The notes below the pieces were generated by a model. That model saw nothing but the letters and a program-made list of their open reading frames with translations, made no database searches and had not been told where the DNA came from. The position numbers were made by a program, and so were the translations under genes. 64,000 bases of DNA from Chitinophagales bacterium (GTDB taxonomy: Bacteria > Bacteroidota > Bacteroidia > Chitinophagales > Saprospiraceae): the NCBI GenBank assembly GCA_013299105.1, contig JAAFJY010000002.1, positions 62,001 to 126,000 on the forward strand, given 5' to 3'. Below, piece by piece: positions 53,556 to 61,538 of the stretch (its first letter is position 1; every line of letters starts with the position of its first letter).

Positions 53556-53656
53556 AAAATGAGGGCATTTTTGCCCAGGCAAGGCGCAAAAAGCGGAGTT
53601 ATGCAGCGCATAATGAGCATTTTTGTAACGAAGCATGGGTAAAAAGGAGCCATTTT
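53556..53656. repeat. Long palindrome upstream of tRNA-Thr
   Basis: A 101-base quasi-palindrome is centred near 53606. The centre is TTATGC-AGC-GCATAA, then an AAAAA/TTTTT pair, and the outermost arms are AAAATG and CATTTT; TTTTTGCCCAGGC pairs with GCATGGGTAAAAA. It lies between the promoter at 53500 and tRNA-Thr. Confidence 0.7.
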
Positions 53657-53696
53657 GGGCCAAGAACATAAGATTATGCCCGATCTAAGAAAATAT

Positions 53697-53772
<76 letters not shown>

Positions 53773-53925
53773 GAGTTATGAACATACTCTATAAGGCCCG
53801 TAGATTTACGGGCCTTTACTTTTTGACATATATTTCCCAACTTTTCACAATGTTTTCTATTTTCCTCTATCATTTTTTGCATTATTAATGTAATTTTTTA
53901 ACTTTACAGGGTTGAAGCAATGTAA

Positions 53926-54270
53926 CTAGTAAGTTCACATGGTTTCGAGACGAAATTTGGTGGTTTTGTCATCAAGATCAGCCCCTTCATCGAAGGGGGC
54001 GACTGGGTGAGCGGCAATTGGATCGAGAGACTGGCCAAGATCATCGGTGACTAGATCGCAGTGATCGTGACCCAAACACAAGGGGTGCAAATTAAACATG
54101 CCTGGGCACAAGGCACCAAAGTGCGCCTCACGCCGGCCAACTTCAACTTCCCGATCTTCGAGATCGATGCACAGGAAGTGGTGGAAATCTGGGATGTGCG
54201 GTGTAGGGTGACTGCGAATGTCATGCTGCCGCCAAGCGGTGTGGCGCACGCAGTGATACTAGCGAGGTGA
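53926..54270 (+). pseudogene. Decayed ORF with an in-frame TAG
   Basis: One reading frame is open from 53926 to the stop near 54270, except for a single TAG at 54052-54054. It has no plausible start. The residues before the TAG (FGGFVIKISPFIEGGDWV) and after it (VRLTPANFNFPIFEIDAQEV) look like ordinary protein. The base composition is more GC-rich than the genes on its right. I do not recognise the family. It could be the remnant of an earlier gene of the accessory block. Confidence 0.45.
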
Positions 54271-54390
54271 GGTGGATGCTGCACGTCGTTCGGGTGGTGG
54301 TGCCGGAGGAGGGGAAAGAGGAGAATTAAGAACAGAGCGAATAGAGGCTATGCATATTTAAGAGCGAGAATTCCACTAAATTATAGCGAA

Positions 54391-54957
54391 GTGAGTGAAA
54401 CAATTTTCATTGAGGACATCAAGACAAAGCTTGGTGTTGCCCAGTCTTTTGCGGACATGATGCGCGATTGCGCTGTTTTTGCTTTCCATGAACACGGTTA
54501 TTCGTCTGGTCTTGAATTAACTTTGACTTACGAAAACCAGAAACTGAAATTCAACGTTGAATGGGAAGTGGAGATCACGGATAGCATAAAAGCCAGTATG
54601 AACGATATGGATCGGACGGTAGAGTTTGGTGCTTACTGTTTCGCAATCCTGTTTTGTAGCAAATTCGTAACCAATTGTAAATACTTTTGGGTTTCAAAAA
54701 AAAGAACAGGGGTTGACTTTCTATTATTCGACAAAGAGAAAGTTGACATCAAAGTTGATGCTGCTTGTGGCAGATTGGAAGTGTCTGGAATCAACAAAGC
54801 AAGCTCAACGAACAATATGAAAACCCGGTTAAAAATCAAAAATAAACAGACAGAAATGTCTGATAATCTGGGAATTCCTGCGTATATTTCGATAACGGAA
54901 TTTTCCACAACACAATCATCATTCACACAGAGAAATGGACGCAACAGCACTACATGA
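54391..54957 (+). CDS. Uncharacterised protein, first gene of an overlapping pair
   Basis: The 188-residue frame starts with GTG at 54391 and is soluble in appearance: an N-terminal helical part (IKTKLGVAQSFADMMRDCAVFAFHE), beta strands in the middle (LTLTYENQKLKFNVEWEVEI) and a polar tail with STTQSSFTQRNG. No signal peptide or membrane helix. Its 3' end overlaps the next gene by 23 bases, so the products are likely coexpressed. I do not recognise the family. Confidence 0.6.
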   Translation: MSETIFIEDIKTKLGVAQSFADMMRDCAVFAFHEHGYSSGLELTLTYENQKLKFNVEWEVEITDSIKASMNDMDRTVEFGAYCFAILFCSKFVTNCKYFWVSKKRTGVDFLLFDKEKVDIKVDAACGRLEVSGINKASSTNNMKTRLKIKNKQTEMSDNLGIPAYISITEFSTTQSSFTQRNGRNSTT

Positions 54958-56035
54958 ACAGGCTATGCAATACGCTCAAGATGCGATGGTTGCAAAAATG
55001 ATTGGAGATGAAGAGGCTGCAACTTCATCGAATCTACAAGCATATGAGTTGGAAAAACAGGCCGCGATGGCTTTGCTTGATGATTTCGACGTAGAACCAG
55101 TACGTTCCCTGTTGTTTCGTAGCGCTGCCGTATTAGCATTTGAATGTGGCCAATATAGAGAAGCTGAAAAACTGGCTTCACTGGGTGTAGCGGGGGACCC
55201 CCCTTCCGATATAGCTGAAGAGTTGCGTAATCTTTTAGAAGATATTAATTTTTACCGACATCTTGAATTGAACGGCATTGAGTTGATGAGCTCTGAAATG
55301 CAAATATCTCTTGCGGGAAGTGAAGTAGCTTATGGTATGGTAGCTGCGGATGAGTATGACGAGCGCACCAAAATAATTGAAATGTTGACCTATCGCACGG
55401 CAGAACGTAAAAGAGGCGATTCTTACCGTACTGCGGGTAAAATTGATCCGGTTATAAAAAACAGCTTTCGTCGTTATTATTCTGCGCCTAGGGCCGCAAG
55501 CTTTGCAGTTACTCTTCGTATTGGTAAAAATAGCAACCCAAACCAACTTTCGTTTTTTAAAGGCGATATGATCAGCGAAGTGATTGAGGAGCTGTTCGAA
55601 AACCTCAAATTGATGAATGAAAGCAGGGAAGACGAATTGCGAGAAGTGATTGACGATGAGGATTACTACCAAAACTTTGTAAGCTTGGCCAAAAGCCTAG
55701 CTCCCGACGGTCAGCGAATAAGCCAAGTAGGGTTTACTATTTACAGACCAGGCCGATCTGAGCGTTTCGGCTTCGTGCGTAAAAAAACAGATTTTTTCAA
55801 ACCTCAAATCGAACCTGGTGATGGTGATGCTGAAATCATTACGATTACAGGTGTACTACGAGGCGCTGATGCCGATACCTCAAAAATAAAAATAAACGCT
55901 GACGAGGGCGGTATTTACAGCATTAAGGTACCTCAAGGCATGCGCGACATAGTTAAAATGTACTGGGAAGAGCAGACTAAAGTTACTTTTCGAAGGAAAG
56001 GAAAGAGACTTACGTTGCTTGATTTGGATAAGTAG
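54935..56035 (+). CDS. Uncharacterised protein with N-terminal TPR-like helices
   Basis: The 366-residue protein starts MDATALHEQAM. Residues 1-110 are helical and TPR-like (EPVRSLLFRSAAVLAFECGQ). The middle has a beta-rich RAASFAVTLRIG segment; the C-terminal part contains ITGVLRGADADTSKIKIN and YWEEQTKVTFRRKG, resembling an RNA- or ligand-binding beta domain. I have a feeling of having seen the family in other bacteria, always with a small partner, but cannot name it. The 5' end overlaps the 188-residue gene. Confidence 0.75.
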   Translation: MDATALHEQAMQYAQDAMVAKMIGDEEAATSSNLQAYELEKQAAMALLDDFDVEPVRSLLFRSAAVLAFECGQYREAEKLASLGVAGDPPSDIAEELRNLLEDINFYRHLELNGIELMSSEMQISLAGSEVAYGMVAADEYDERTKIIEMLTYRTAERKRGDSYRTAGKIDPVIKNSFRRYYSAPRAASFAVTLRIGKNSNPNQLSFFKGDMISEVIEELFENLKLMNESREDELREVIDDEDYYQNFVSLAKSLAPDGQRISQVGFTIYRPGRSERFGFVRKKTDFFKPQIEPGDGDAEIITITGVLRGADADTSKIKINADEGGIYSIKVPQGMRDIVKMYWEEQTKVTFRRKGKRLTLLDLDK

Positions 56036-56075
56036 GGGTGAGTCTAATTTATTTATTTGCAAATTTATCAGGAAA

Positions 56076-57356
56076 ATGACAACAATACTTAGTGAAATAC
56101 AGGACTTAATTGATTCAATCGATTCCACCCTTTCCGATCAAGAGGAATTGATAAAATCTTTTATCAAAGACCTTATCAATGCAAAATTCAATTATACCAG
56201 TGACTACTATCTTCGTTTTAAACAGTATCGAGCGATTAAACAGAATAGATATGCTCTCGTTGAAAAGTTGGCATTACTTGATGAAGTCTTATCTTCTAAG
56301 CCTTTAGAAGATCAAGCAACTCATTCCGAGTTAATAAAAATAGCGAATTCATTAAAGGAAAAGAATGAATCACTAGTTCTACAGGAATTGACATTGCAAA
56401 TTTTAAATACGAAGTATTTTAAGCCTATTCCGCACCTAAATGATCTAGATACTCCTTTGGACCGTTTTTTGCTATCTAGTTCCAAAGAATATGCTTTGTT
56501 CAGAAAAGAACCAGAAAAATTGAGCACCCATTTTTTTAGACATAGAAAGAAGGATTCATTCTTGGTATTTCGATATTTAGTAGCATCAATTAACATTTCA
56601 CCACCTTCAGATTTTCAAAAACATAAAGAACAAGTCATAGAGTCATTACTTTCTGATTATTCAAACAGACCTCCATTTCTTATAACAGAAGATAATTCAC
56701 CTGAATTATATATGTTTTTTAACAAATATGATTCGTCGTTGTTCGTAATAACAATCTCCACATATTCTGTTGGAGTCAATCTCAATCAAATCATCATTGA
56801 CACTGACAGGCAAATCTTATTAATAGATGGTTCTATAAAGGAGTTGGATATTGCTTTCATGGCTGTAAATCTTTTTGAAAAAGAATTGAGGGATAAGGTC
56901 AGATCATATGGCTACAGCTTTAATGTCCGGGAATTGCCTTCAGCAGAAAAATTCTGGAACCACATTGAAGATTCTGAAAATATTTACGAATTAAGCCTGG
57001 TATTGAATACCCCCAACATGTTTGGAGGCAACCAGGAAACAAAAGATTTGTTAAAAAAGGTAAAAGAAGCTGTCAACATAGAGGAGGTTGAAGTTGTTTT
57101 CCGCAATAAGGATGGGCTACTGAAGGTGATAAAGAAGACCATTGGTGATTATTTAAGGTATATTTTTCAGATTGGTGGCTCTTACAGGTTGATAATTGGT
57201 AAAGATGGTATCAAAGAAACAAAAACCAGCAAAGAAGACATTGTGACAATCAAGGGAATTAACCTTGTGGACGAAAATGGGCAGATTGACCCTGAAAAAC
57301 TCAGTGAAATCAGGGAGAAACTAGAGCAGATAGACTCTGATCGTAAATCTGCATAA
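56076..57356 (+). CDS. Uncharacterised soluble protein paired with a four-helix membrane protein
   Basis: The ATG at 56076 (426 residues) begins MTTILSEIQDLIDS. The N-terminal half is helical (about 1-190); the middle contains ELYMFFNKYDSSLFVITIS and ILLIDGSIKELDIAFMAVN. The C-terminal 110 residues are charged with repeats of K, E and I. No nucleotide-binding motif or nuclease motif is seen. The membrane protein gene starts 9 bases after its stop. Confidence 0.7.
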   Translation: MTTILSEIQDLIDSIDSTLSDQEELIKSFIKDLINAKFNYTSDYYLRFKQYRAIKQNRYALVEKLALLDEVLSSKPLEDQATHSELIKIANSLKEKNESLVLQELTLQILNTKYFKPIPHLNDLDTPLDRFLLSSSKEYALFRKEPEKLSTHFFRHRKKDSFLVFRYLVASINISPPSDFQKHKEQVIESLLSDYSNRPPFLITEDNSPELYMFFNKYDSSLFVITISTYSVGVNLNQIIIDTDRQILLIDGSIKELDIAFMAVNLFEKELRDKVRSYGYSFNVRELPSAEKFWNHIEDSENIYELSLVLNTPNMFGGNQETKDLLKKVKEAVNIEEVEVVFRNKDGLLKVIKKTIGDYLRYIFQIGGSYRLIIGKDGIKETKTSKEDIVTIKGINLVDENGQIDPEKLSEIREKLEQIDSDRKSA

Positions 57357-57365
57357 ACAACCTGC

Positions 57366-57929
57366 ATGATGAAGAAACTTCTCAAATATATAAAGCCAAC
57401 ACTGCTATTCACAGTGTTCATTATAGCCTCCAGCCTGCTCGTATACCACACTGATGCAGAGAAGATAGCTCTTTTCGAGCCAGTGGGGCTTTTTACTTAT
57501 GTAGGGGTTCTTCTGGGCTTCGCCATTACCATCTACAAATTTACCCTTTCCCTTGTTGACAACATAAAGGAAAGCATCCAAAAGCTGACCGAACTGAATG
57601 ATGAGACCAAAGAACAACTGATTGCACAGCTTATGAGGGGTTTTAAAGAGATGAAGGAAAACATCATGCTGCTTTTTGTAGGGTTGGTAGTCATCACCAT
57701 TTTTGCAATGCTTGCACTAATCGAGAATCCATATATGAATGATGTATCAAGGTTCCAAATCCCAGAGATTGCGCTTTTGAGTACGTTCTTTTTCTGTACT
57801 TATTCTATTTATGATCTGATGCGTACACTGTTTAATATCTCTGAGGTGAAGCTGATACTGGTGCAAGCAAAGCCTAAAAAGCCTGGGGATGTGGCTGGAC
57901 AGGATATAGAGGGGATAAAGAAGGATTAG
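57366..57929 (+). CDS. Four-helix membrane protein
   Basis: This 187-residue protein has hydrophobic helices at about 12-28, 41-60, 99-119 and 132-152. Between helices 2 and 3 is a long charged helix (NIKESIQKLTELNDETKEQL). The N-terminus is basic (MMKKLLKYIK). There are no catalytic motifs. The tight linkage to the preceding soluble gene is the pattern of a sensor plus membrane effector, as in several abortive-infection systems, but no family is recognised. Confidence 0.7.
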   Translation: MMKKLLKYIKPTLLFTVFIIASSLLVYHTDAEKIALFEPVGLFTYVGVLLGFAITIYKFTLSLVDNIKESIQKLTELNDETKEQLIAQLMRGFKEMKENIMLLFVGLVVITIFAMLALIENPYMNDVSRFQIPEIALLSTFFFCTYSIYDLMRTLFNISEVKLILVQAKPKKPGDVAGQDIEGIKKD

Positions 57930-58033
57930 CAAGGGGCATCTCAATAGGTATTTTTGAAAGGAGAAGAAAATTTGAGTAAGTTTCATGCAACAAGACTGGT
58001 GTATGAAGTCTGTTATTGTACTAATCTTTAACC

Positions 58034-59551
58034 ATGAGAATTCTACTTGACACCAACATCATCATCCACAGAGAGGCCAGTTCAGTTAAAGAAGACTGGA
58101 TAGGTAAGTTATTCAACTGGATGGATCGCCTTAAATACAATAAATGTGTCCATCCAACAACACTGGAGGAGATCAAAGAGCATAAAGATCCCAAAGTTGT
58201 TAAAACGATGAATACCAAACTTGAAAGCTACAATTTGCTTAAGACCAAAGCACCAATTACACCTAAAATTCAAGAAGTGATTGATAAATTTGATCAAAAC
58301 AAAAATGACCAAAATGATTCCCTAATACTAAACGAAGTTTTTTCTGATCGGGTCGATTTTCTGATCACCGAAGACAAAAAAATTCATAAAAAAGCTGCCT
58401 ATCTTGGTATATCCTCCAAAGTGTATAGCATAACTTCATTTATTGAAAAGGTTACTGTAGAGAACCCTGACTTAACGGACTACAAGGTGCTTTCAGTAAA
58501 AAAGTATCATTTTGGAGAATTGGACATTGCTGACGAATTTTTCGACAACTTTAGAGAGGATTATCTAGGTTTTGATATGTGGTTCAACAAAAAAGCTGAC
58601 GAAATAGCATATGTATGTTTAGCGGATGACAACAAAGTACTCGCTTTTCTTTATGTAAAAGTTGAAGGTAAAGAAGAAAATTACCAAGACATTACACCTG
58701 TGTTACCCCCTAAAAAGCGGCTCAAAATAGGCACGTTCAAAGTTGTAATGAATGGATATAAGTTGGGCGAACGCTTCCTTAAAATCATTTTCGACAATGC
58801 TTTGCTGTTTAAGGTTGAGGAAATCTATGTCACTATTTTTCCAAAGAGAAAAGAGCAAATGCTTTTGATCCATTCCCTAAAAGATTGGGGATTTTATGAG
58901 CATGGTATAAAGAAAACCCCAACGGGCGAAGAGCACGTTTTTGTAAGAGATTTTAGTAAGCAGATTAATGTCAAGGATCCCAAACTAGTTTACCCTTTTG
59001 TCTCAGCAAAATCCAATATTTTCATGGTATCGATTTATCCTGATTACCATACCGAGCTTTTTCCTGATTCCATTTTAAGGACAGAATCCGCCTCGGATTT
59101 TATTGAGAACCAACCACACAGAAATGCAATAAGCAAAGTTTTTATCAGTCGTTCAATAAATAAAAACCTCAAGCCTGGAGATTTGATTGTTTTTTATAGA
59201 ACAGGGGGTACGTATCAAGGTGTCGTTAGTACCATTGGCGTTGTGGAAAATGTAGTACTTAACATCAAAGATGAAAACGATTTAATCCTTCATTGCAGAA
59301 AAAGAAGTGTGTTCAGTGACCAAGAGCTCAGGGATTTTTGGAACTTTAATAAGACCAAACCCTTCGTTGTAAACTTTTTGTATGTTTTTTCATTGAAAAA
59401 GCGAATTAACTTAAAGACTTTAATAGATTTGGGGATCATAAAAGATCTTGGTTCAGCACCTCGAGGTTTTGAGCTAATATCTAAACAACATTTTGATCTC
59501 ATCATCAAAGAATCTCAAAGCGATGCAAGTATTATTGTCGATCAAACCTGA
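58034..59551 (+). CDS. PIN - GNAT - ASCH/EVE-like three-domain protein
   Basis: The protein has 505 residues. Residues 1-140 are a PIN nuclease domain: D6 (LLDTNIIIH), E46, D95 (NDSLIL) and D114 (FLITEDKKI) form the acidic site. Residues about 150-310 look like a GNAT acetyltransferase (IAYVCLADDNKVLAFLYVKV, GTFKVVMNGYKLGERFL). Residues about 325-500 resemble an ASCH/EVE (PUA-like) domain: FMVSIYPDYHTELFP, LKPGDLIVFYRTG, GVVSTIGVVENVV. PIN domains cut RNA; ASCH domains bind RNA or modified nucleotides. It overlaps the following ASCH gene by 29 bases. Confidence 0.85.
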   Translation: MRILLDTNIIIHREASSVKEDWIGKLFNWMDRLKYNKCVHPTTLEEIKEHKDPKVVKTMNTKLESYNLLKTKAPITPKIQEVIDKFDQNKNDQNDSLILNEVFSDRVDFLITEDKKIHKKAAYLGISSKVYSITSFIEKVTVENPDLTDYKVLSVKKYHFGELDIADEFFDNFREDYLGFDMWFNKKADEIAYVCLADDNKVLAFLYVKVEGKEENYQDITPVLPPKKRLKIGTFKVVMNGYKLGERFLKIIFDNALLFKVEEIYVTIFPKRKEQMLLIHSLKDWGFYEHGIKKTPTGEEHVFVRDFSKQINVKDPKLVYPFVSAKSNIFMVSIYPDYHTELFPDSILRTESASDFIENQPHRNAISKVFISRSINKNLKPGDLIVFYRTGGTYQGVVSTIGVVENVVLNIKDENDLILHCRKRSVFSDQELRDFWNFNKTKPFVVNFLYVFSLKKRINLKTLIDLGIIKDLGSAPRGFELISKQHFDLIIKESQSDASIIVDQT

Positions 59552-59894
59552 GTTTGCTAACAAAATTTTCCAAGGCATCAAGCTTTATGAATTTAGAAGA
59601 ACAATTTTTAAGCACCCCGTGAATAAAGTAGTAGTATATGCTTCAGCTCCAATCAGTAAGGTAATTGGAGAATTTGAAGTTGACTCTATTCTTCATCACG
59701 ATTTATCTACACTCTGGGAAAAAACGGAATCTTTCGCTGGCATCGAGAAGGATTTTTTCTTTGATTACTTCGATGGCAAAGAGCATGGTTATGCAATTAG
59801 AATCAAAAAGCCAAAGCAATACCGAATTCCACGATGTATCAAATCATATTACAACATTCAGCCCCCACAATCTTTTGCCTATATTATGAGTTGA
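59523..59894 (+). CDS. Stand-alone ASCH domain protein
   Basis: The ATG at 59523 gives 123 residues starting MQVLLSIKPEFANKIFQG with LYEFRRTIF, a typical ASCH start (Lys-Pro...Phe-x-Lys/Arg). The strand VVVYASAPISKVIGEFEV fits the PUA-like beta-barrel. Its start overlaps the end of the PIN-GNAT-ASCH gene. ASCH proteins of this size include the E. coli YqfB amidohydrolase of N4-acetylcytidine, so a base-modification or RNA role is possible, but it is not shown here. Confidence 0.8.
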   Translation: MQVLLSIKPEFANKIFQGIKLYEFRRTIFKHPVNKVVVYASAPISKVIGEFEVDSILHHDLSTLWEKTESFAGIEKDFFFDYFDGKEHGYAIRIKKPKQYRIPRCIKSYYNIQPPQSFAYIMS

Positions 59895-60056
59895 GGTTTT
59901 CGTTTTTTCGCCATTGTGCCCAGCTTCGATTGATTCCACATAAAAAGCTACCTCAAGATCCATCTCATGGAGAAATATCCTTTTACTACCAAACCATAAA
60001 CTATACAACGGAACAATGCAAAATACAAGCGGAAGGCAGAGTTTTTCCAATCCCCC

Positions 60057-61538
60057 TCACCCCAACAACTTATTCAATCGATCCTGCACCATTTGAAACT
60101 GTTGGCGCTTCTCAATTACAAGCGGCGGCGCAGCCCTTTCAGTACAATTAGGCAAGGCACAGCGTTCACAAGTAGTATGCACCTCGCGGGAGAGGATAGC
60201 CGGGTCGTTCAGGAATTTGATCTTGCTGCGCAGCTCTTCGTCAATCAAAAGCCCGATGGTCACACTGACGTTTTTGTTCGGGCTAGGGTAAGAGGTCCTG
60301 GCGATGGTGATGCACAAATACTCGTCCTTGGTATTGAGGTAGCTGGAAATTTGGGCTTTGATCAAGGTTTCTTGTCCTGCGGGCTGCATGGTTGCCAACT
60401 CTTGCAACAAGGAAATCGACAACCAACGGCGGCAGTAATGCTCGTACAAACCGTTGCCGTGCGGATGGTGTCGATAGCTGAGGTGCAGTTCTTTGTCTAC
60501 CTCAAAGGTGTTTTTGTCAGGATCGTGTACGAAGCGCAGGAAAAACAACTTGCGGATGCCAAAAAACTTGGGCAAAATATTGGTCAAGCGATGGTACAGC
60601 ATTTCGGGAGTCACATCGTAGTGCTTCATCAGGTCCAAAAAAGCTTCACCACTCCAGGTTTTCGACTGAAAAATCTGCTCCAAATCGGCATTGATGCGGG
60701 CCAAAGGCAGGTGCAAGGCCACCGAAAAATAAATGGCTTGCGAATGGTTAAGTACTTCGTTGAAGGTTTTTCCCCGCAAGATCGAAGAAGTATATGCCCT
60801 TTCGCTCAAGTTGAGGGATTGAAAACCCAGCTCTTTGCCCAATTCAAAATTGCGCTGGATGCCGCTCAACCCACTGCTCAACAGCAACTCCTTGCGTTTA
60901 GGGATAAAAATGCTGCGCAAGTGTCGCAACTCTGGGTAGCGATCCAAACCACTGCTCAATACTAGGTAATCATATTTTTCCTCCAGGATGTTTTGCAGGG
61001 TTTCAAAAGTCAAGGGACGTTGATCGCTCAACTTATTCGCAGCGATAAAACGAGCAGCGGCATCTTCCAAGTCCTGGAAATAGTTGTTGTGCAATTCAAG
61101 GTAAGCCCGCAGCGCACCGAAGTAAAAGTTTTCTTGCCTCAGGGCGTAGTTGCGCGACAGTTCGAGCAAGGTAGAAATAAAGGCATTCACTTTGGCGGGT
61201 GCGCCAGCGATGATCTCCACGACTTTGGCCATATCAATGCCAAAGCGCTCCAAGGGCAGTTCGCTGAGAAAATTAGATTGCAAAAGATCGTTGACCGGGG
61301 CCAGGCCCTCGTCCACTTCTTGCGAAGCCAAGGCCTCAGCCGACACGCCCAGGGCTTGGGCCAGGGTGGCAATTTTTTCTTCTCGTGGGTATTTCTTCCC
61401 TTTCTCGATTTCATTGAGGTAAGAAACCGACAGTTGTGATGCCTCCGACAGTTCCACAAAAGAGAGGCCCTTTTGCTGTCGCAGTTGTTTCACTTTTAAC
61501 CCGAAAAGAATCCGCTCGTTTTGCGCCTTGGTGCTCAT
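60057..61538 (-). CDS. XRE-family regulator with ScfR/DUF2083-type C-terminal domain
   Basis: The 493-residue protein has an N-terminal XRE HTH (VKQLRQQKGLSFVELSEASQ, about 16-70). This is followed by a long helical-rich body of the short-chain-fatty-acid regulator (ScfR/RamB) class, where an ImmA/IrrE-like part (YSLR, HHPHG region) is often found. A C-terminal cysteine cluster is present (TTCERCALPNCTERAAPP). The family regulates acyl-CoA and short-chain fatty acid metabolism in other bacteria. No such genes adjoin. Confidence 0.85.
   Translation of the reverse strand: MSTKAQNERILFGLKVKQLRQQKGLSFVELSEASQLSVSYLNEIEKGKKYPREEKIATLAQALGVSAEALASQEVDEGLAPVNDLLQSNFLSELPLERFGIDMAKVVEIIAGAPAKVNAFISTLLELSRNYALRQENFYFGALRAYLELHNNYFQDLEDAAARFIAANKLSDQRPLTFETLQNILEEKYDYLVLSSGLDRYPELRHLRSIFIPKRKELLLSSGLSGIQRNFELGKELGFQSLNLSERAYTSSILRGKTFNEVLNHSQAIYFSVALHLPLARINADLEQIFQSKTWSGEAFLDLMKHYDVTPEMLYHRLTNILPKFFGIRKLFFLRFVHDPDKNTFEVDKELHLSYRHHPHGNGLYEHYCRRWLSISLLQELATMQPAGQETLIKAQISSYLNTKDEYLCITIARTSYPSPNKNVSVTIGLLIDEELRSKIKFLNDPAILSREVHTTCERCALPNCTERAAPPLVIEKRQQFQMVQDRLNKLLG

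Follow-up and report, generated by a model that had tools for sequence, protein, structure and literature searches.

A chromosomal PIN-GNAT-EVE and ASCH gene pair of a Chitinophagales bacterium belongs to an already described class of predicted toxin-antitoxin modules

Described relatives of the locus

The closest systems described so far are the operons in which Bell, Wolf and Koonin (2020) found (PIN)-GNAT-EVE genes combined with ASCH genes, along with AAA_17 genes and R-M neighbours; the available part of that paper states that no module of these systems has been experimentally characterised and credits the proposal of base acetylation to Iyer et al. (2013) (PMC7641849). PADLOC lists such a pair as PDC-M11, a candidate phage defence system, and a PIN-less pair of homologues, GevT and GevA, is carried by the phage PhiR47_2. 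Among the relatives of single domains, ZmASCH of Zymomonas mobilis (PDB 5guq, 5gus) has been studied as a lone, Mg-dependent single-strand RNase which, according to the accessible text, cuts ssRNA and leaves bound ssDNA undegraded (PMC5615036); the ac4C amidohydrolase YqfB also has the ASCH fold; and the GNAT fold of TacT, AtaT and ItaT and the PIN fold of VapC are those of toxins that inhibit translation (in part from the available text of PMC7641849). In the literature searched we found no experimental study of PDC-M11, GNAT-EVE, GevT/GevA or ASCH antitoxins, and such studies may well exist; in the accessible portion of the DefensePredictor paper, no mention of ASCH, GNAT, EVE or acetyltransferase was found.

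The locus considered here lies in a genome of 7.67 Mb, within the 64,000-nucleotide stretch of DNA that was analysed as a whole (hereafter, the window), and consists of two genes on the plus strand. The first (58034-59551) is a single open reading frame of 505 codons that starts with ATG and encodes a PIN-GNAT-EVE protein, the predicted toxin; the second runs from an ATG at 59523 to a stop at 59894 and encodes a 123-aa ASCH protein, the predicted antitoxin. The two frames share 29 nt (59523-59551), a layout that suggests translational coupling of both genes, and the presence of a separate ASCH gene overlapping the 3' end, as noticed in the first-pass annotation of this DNA, is borne out by the coordinates 59523-59894. 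The long protein matches PDC-M11A at 5.9e-213 over residues 1-502 of 505, the adjacent ASCH protein matches PDC-M11B at 2.6e-50 over residues 1-121 of 123, and no difference from PDC-M11 was seen in either protein.

With the class of Bell et al. (2020) the window pair has in common the domain order, the ASCH partner and the proposed toxin-antitoxin setting, and it differs in the frequent AAA_17 gene and the R-M neighbours, neither of which was found by the pair: no AAA_17 gene was detected within the window at E 1e-10, and a scan of the neighbouring genes did not reveal any recognisable R-M gene. With GevT-GevA it shares the combination of GNAT-EVE toxin and ASCH antitoxin homologues in overlapping frames, whereas GevT is devoid of a PIN domain and the window pair is not located beside a recognised phage repressor. 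The novelty initially expected of such a module thus has to be given up: the pair is not new in kind, being catalogued by PADLOC and described, in the available part of their paper, by Bell et al. (2020) (PMC7641849), and the two-gene locus is one ordinary chromosomal member of this class. Judging from sequence comparison, we consider it probable that the pair is a toxin-antitoxin module acting as phage defence of the abortive-infection type.

Domains and active sites of the long protein

The union of PIN, GNAT and PUA-like folds in one chain, proposed at first sight of the sequence, is backed by profiles, by a confident AlphaFold2 model (pLDDT 91.0) and by fold comparison, the three folds covering residues 1-134, 141-310 and 327-495. 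The N-terminal PIN domain (residues 1-140; 58034-58453, plus strand) matches Pfam PIN_3 at 3.7e-6, and VapC2 is the PIN match among the solved-structure matches listed. The GNAT-fold domain occupies the middle of the chain (residues 150-310; 58481-58963, plus strand). The C-terminal, EVE/ASCH-like domain of the PUA superfamily (residues 325-505; 59006-59548, plus strand) matches Pfam EVE under the cut-off (7.8e-4); ZmASCH is the best-ranked solved fold for this part, and no EVE structure appears among the solved-structure matches listed. Homology in sequence between this domain and the ASCH partner was considered and judged unconvincing (hhalign probability 6.0, E 0.0063, 68 columns); the two have the fold alone in common.

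Conservation was assessed after dereplication at 75%, which left 85 rows, 57 of them PIN-bearing and 28 PIN-less. In the PIN domain, D6, T7, N8, H40, E46, D95 and D114 are invariant in 57/57 PIN-bearing rows, and by this pattern the nuclease should be active. Across all 85 rows, K209, K231, G245, Y265 and T267 of the GNAT region and H339, N364, K368 and Y388 of the C-terminal domain do not vary. In a profile alignment the GNAT region is weakly matched to Arabidopsis Naa50 (E 0.035), with K231 and T267 aligned with the Tyr and His of the Naa50 catalytic pair. The textbook GNAT P-loop motif is Q/R-x-x-G-x-G/A; the commonest pattern in this family is [NH]-G-[YT]-[KR]-[LI]-G, where the first position is Asn in 55/57 PIN-bearing and His in 17/28 PIN-less proteins and the fourth is Lys or Arg in all 57 of the former and in 21 of the 28 latter. 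The site is therefore conserved though not textbook and, the P-loop being altered, acetyl-CoA use is plausible and not assured.

The GNAT fold is what the long protein has in common with TacT, AtaT and ItaT, and the PIN fold with VapC. Unlike these toxins, it unites both folds, and a domain of RNA-binding type, in a single chain, and its partner is an ASCH protein in place of the RHH antitoxin of TacT and AtaT or the VapB antitoxin of VapBC.

Distribution, pairing and neighbourhood of the family

The module is patchily and widely spread. Matches to the family were obtained in 11 of 298 genomes of the same order, the window genome included; a scan of genome contigs gave 454 relatives (the 80 best were retained) in Bacteroidota, Pseudomonadota, Chloroflexota, Nanoarchaeota and other taxa; a scan of viral contigs gave 61 loci; and matches were also obtained in 33 plasmid and 16 phage records. 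A profile match of more than 330 positions in one reading frame was the threshold for a census of 144 loci; 13 of the 157 matching sources, fragments or broken copies, stay outside the toxin counts (L008, L011, L012, L087, L128, L136, L140-L143, L145, L146, L151), although for several of these the ASCH partner is still one of the 151 ASCH proteins that the census comprises. Near copies are present among the 144 loci (the window and L001, L003 and L059, and also phage copies that are identical), and figures are therefore quoted for the 85 loci dereplicated at 75% as well. Among these 85, a full-length ASCH partner on the same strand is present in 83, and the toxin and ASCH frames overlap in 75, 53 of them by 23 nt; the non-overlapping pairs comprise five with gaps below 110 nt and three separated by a gene of about 1 kb. 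In one further locus (L075) the ASCH gene, behind such a ~1-kb gene, is cut off by the contig end, and for one toxin gene (L031) no ASCH match was found in its contig or in the draft genome, the empty answer from the draft genome being weak.

Several variants of this organisation were seen. In L141, L142, L145 and L151, the GNAT and EVE-like C-terminal parts are split over two overlapping frames ahead of ASCH, an arrangement that is probably, to judge from the reading frames, natural gene fission at a domain border. A 308-kb viral contig (L143, 7731-8552) encodes a protein with the GNAT part alone (E 5e-42 to the family profile), with no ASCH match in the locus. On the Mesorhizobium huakuii plasmid p_1 (L169, 5561-7874), a GNAT-EVE gene is flanked by two ASCH genes, the upstream one on the same and the downstream one on the opposite strand.

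Two gene families recur next to the pair. In 50/144 loci the toxin gene has as its same-strand neighbour a small P-loop gene, the AAA_17 ATPase gene mentioned above, which lies immediately upstream in 48; its copy in L120 matches PADLOC VakA at 1.8e-4. The second family, of ~310-355 aa, has matches in 16 loci, some of them weak (L066, 2.8e-11; L032, 2e-7; L092, 2.4e-6). It is located directly behind the toxin gene in eight (L015, L022, L041, L052, L072, L075, L081, L084), preceding ASCH in the seven of these where the ASCH gene is in view, and directly upstream in L066, L092, L097 and L144; part of it lies further upstream in L032, and in L054, L070 and L132 it is nearby on the opposite strand. 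No Pfam match over the cut-off was obtained for the two members scanned (L084 and L015; best 0.085) and no PADLOC match for five (L084, L015, L097, L066 and L092). Given a C-terminal hydrophobic stretch, judged by eye, the protein is apparently membrane-anchored.

In the window itself, four consecutive same-strand open reading frames of 188, 366, 426 (from ATG) and 187 aa lie between a tRNA-Thr gene and the toxin gene (54391-57929); by eye, the 187-aa product is hydrophobic. None has a Pfam or NCBIfam match over the curated cut-off; the PADLOC scan of the four gave a weak GajB match (0.011) and nothing else, and no VapB is listed in the Pfam, NCBIfam or PADLOC scans. Among 198 genomes searched, the 426-aa frame matches that of the window alone, and the 366-aa frame matches six, the window genome included, mostly through part of its first 130 residues. 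A genomic island integrated at tRNA-Thr was considered and not upheld: a repeat search of 53600-60300 gave no direct or inverted repeat of at least 18 nt and hence no island ends around the locus, and no empty site can be demonstrated because the best matches of the flanks in genome G179 sit in different places. The near-empty PADLOC result upstream and the missing island ends, like the altered GNAT P-loop, count against the defence reading.

Could the neighbourhood point to DNA as the substrate? Following Iyer et al. (2013), as cited in the available part of Bell et al. (2020), the GNAT domain would acetylate a base of DNA, and the modified DNA would be read by EVE and ASCH in a restriction-like manner. 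This proposal can draw on relatives of EVE and ASCH with known or predicted binding to modified DNA bases, and on the type I R-M neighbours and the ASCH-HsdS fusion reported in the same text (PMC7641849). Genes near PIN-bearing loci were scanned with PADLOC and Pfam (a random 140 of 207) and genes far from them with PADLOC (139 of 149). AAA_17 (Pfam) was found in 15 of the 140 near genes, and each R-M family listed matched just one. Enrichment of defence genes was not concluded from this comparison, given that the figures, 138 PADLOC families for the 140 near genes and 39 for the 139 far ones, count families and are inflated by many models per gene; only mads_2, mads_3 and mads_8 matched more than one gene in the near or far set. 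Apart from the scarcity of R-M genes, the PIN domain has an RNase fold whose acidic residues D6, E46, D95 and D114 are invariant (57/57), and ZmASCH, in the accessible text, cuts ssRNA and spares the ssDNA that it binds (PMC5615036). With this evidence against it, modification of DNA appears to us a quite unlikely explanation.

The toxin-antitoxin reading that we favour has a counterpart in phages, where the pairing implied by the first-pass annotation reappears under these very names. In Escherichia phage PhiR47_2 (PV340567.1), the two genes of a PIN-less homologous pair, in overlapping frames, are annotated as 'GevT toxin' and 'GevA antitoxin', names that come from the record annotation; GevT is 38.8% identical to residues 160-502 of the window toxin, and GevA 49.6% identical to the window ASCH protein. 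The pair lies directly downstream of cI, ahead of kil and gam, and the lambda-like phage 4A7 has the order cI - GNAT/EVE - ASCH - kil. The equivalent place in lambda is that of the exclusion genes rexAB. Of 5426 complete E. coli genomes, 274 carry GevTA, always on the chromosome (megablast, at least 99% identity). In a PHROGs scan of 41 proteins (40 of the 46 open reading frames that precede the module in a set of 25 dereplicated PIN-less viral loci, a single locus being without any, plus the PhiR47_2 cI), the repressor family phrog_4 was matched by 10, this cI among them. The Rhizobium etli partner, encoded upstream of the toxin in the classical antitoxin-first order, is an HTH-ASCH fusion of 301 aa, with matches to solved HigA antitoxins in the HTH region (1.3e-6 and 1.6e-5) and to ZmASCH in the C-terminal part (9.6e-20). 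Methanothermobacter phage psiM100 carries a PIN-bearing pair in which an annotated inserted fragment ends within the toxin gene, and psiM2 retains, at 99.4% identity, ASCH together with the final codons of the toxin gene, without the toxin body. An ASCH gene that stands without the toxin is what would be expected of an antitoxin; the toxin gene of L031, for which no ASCH match was found, argues against this expectation.

In the Lactobacillus prophage Lj965 (L156, 2346-4441), a GNAT-EVE and ASCH pair is located directly behind four phage tRNA genes. Adjoining tRNA genes were considered as a hint to the target and discarded as not general: ARAGORN found tRNA in 18 loci with long matches, mostly kilobases away.

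The division between phage and chromosomal forms is central to another proposal of Bell et al. (2020), in the available part of their paper: that GNAT-EVE is a weapon of phages and that the chromosomal PIN-GNAT-EVE degrades the aminoacyl-tRNAs acetylated by it (PMC7641849). In line with this proposal, PIN-less forms make up 50 of the 52 viral-contig loci with long matches, and all 79 kept genome loci have PIN, the 80 kept being the closest of 454, so that these proportions tell little about nature; in a tree of the common part, one branch separates the PIN-bearing from the PIN-less proteins (support 97/100, the bootstrap not being fully settled), which would fit a single gain or loss of PIN on the family tree. 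Yet the PIN-bearing proteins keep the GNAT site and the overlapping ASCH gene, beyond what a pure counter-toxin would need, and PIN-bearing forms also occur in phage psiM100 and in viral contigs L093 and L094. A role of the chromosomal protein in neutralising phage weapons is thus improbable in our judgement.

The ASCH partner and a possible mode of action

How the ASCH protein would serve as the antitoxin is best approached through its conserved residues. In an alignment of 84 of the 85 dereplicated rows (without L062), S6, I15, K20, E23, R25, Y39, P43, W65, Y82, A91, P115, Q116 and S117 are invariant, and eight of these positions (K20, E23, R25, Y39, W65, Y82, Q116 and S117), checked across all 151 census proteins including L062 and the near copies, are constant in 151/151. 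Aligned with ZmASCH, R25, Y39, Y82, Q116 and S117 correspond to R32, Y47, Y90, Q127 and S128 (5gus numbering, checked against the residues named in the ZmASCH paper), which in the accessible text are placed by simulation at the bound RNA, in the nucleic-acid cleft; the mutants of Y47, K53 and S128 are reported there to be impaired (PMC5615036). ZmASCH K53 aligns with Ser45 of the window protein, next to which is Lys46.

These residues bear directly on the suggestion, made in the first-pass annotation, that the GNAT domain acetylates RNA cytidines and the ASCH protein removes the acetyl group as YqfB does. YqfB, in the available text, needs Lys21, Thr24 and Arg26, the Thr being the essential nucleophile (PMC6972931). 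The ASCH fold is shared, and K21-T24-R26 has the same spacing as K20-E23-R25 here, active-site Lys and Arg included; the position of the catalytic Thr, however, is Glu in 151/151, so that the Thr-Lys-Glu triad with Arg of the YqfB type is not present in the window protein. With Lys20, Glu23 and Arg25 constant in every partner, we have abandoned a YqfB-like eraser as the leading idea and see little chance for it. Because the cleft residues are kept and the YqfB Thr is Glu, the ASCH partner appears to be a ZmASCH-like binder of nucleic acid rather than an eraser, and its invariant cleft suggests an antitoxin that would act through nucleic acid. Acetyl marks on RNA may still be written or read by the module. 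A housekeeping module of RNA modification or turnover with no role in conflict is still harder to accept and has a very slim chance, considering the patchy spread (11/298 genomes of the order; 274/5426 E. coli genomes for near-identical GevTA), carriage by phages and plasmids, and the toxin and antitoxin annotation of homologues.

We therefore return to a toxin-antitoxin module active in phage defence, for which the domains, the invariant active sites, the near-constant pairing, the phage and prophage homologues, the annotated homologue and psiM2 form the observed basis. Under this scenario, the C-terminal PUA-superfamily domain would dock the 505-aa toxin on RNA, probably modified, such as tRNA; the GNAT domain would acylate the bound target; and, in the chromosomal branch, the PIN domain would additionally cut RNA. 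The overlapping ASCH gene would provide the antitoxin in step with the toxin, and, since the nucleic-acid cleft of a solved relative is lined by the counterparts of its invariant residues, the antitoxin would probably protect, hide or process the nucleic-acid target or product of the toxin, beyond gripping the toxin itself. We infer RNA to be the target from the PIN fold, from a partner whose cleft is of the ZmASCH type, and from the toxins known for either fold; the acylation chemistry, the trigger and the way in which ASCH would neutralise the toxin are put forward in the same spirit. A more elaborate version, possible though doubtful as a whole, is that the ASCH antitoxin competes for, or processes, the modified RNA recognised by the PUA-fold domain of the toxin, that the GNAT domain (K231/T267) acylates this RNA or the amino acid charged on it and PIN cuts it, and that the ~310-355-aa protein is a third, sensory or effector part.

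In a module spread over bacteria, archaea, phages and plasmids, the residue counts frame two questions: whether ASCH would act through its nucleic-acid cleft or as an eraser, and whether the altered GNAT site would use acetyl-CoA. An ASCH antitoxin that may act on nucleic acid is the aspect that we judge most worth testing, and the recurrent gene of ~310-355 aa is likewise of note.
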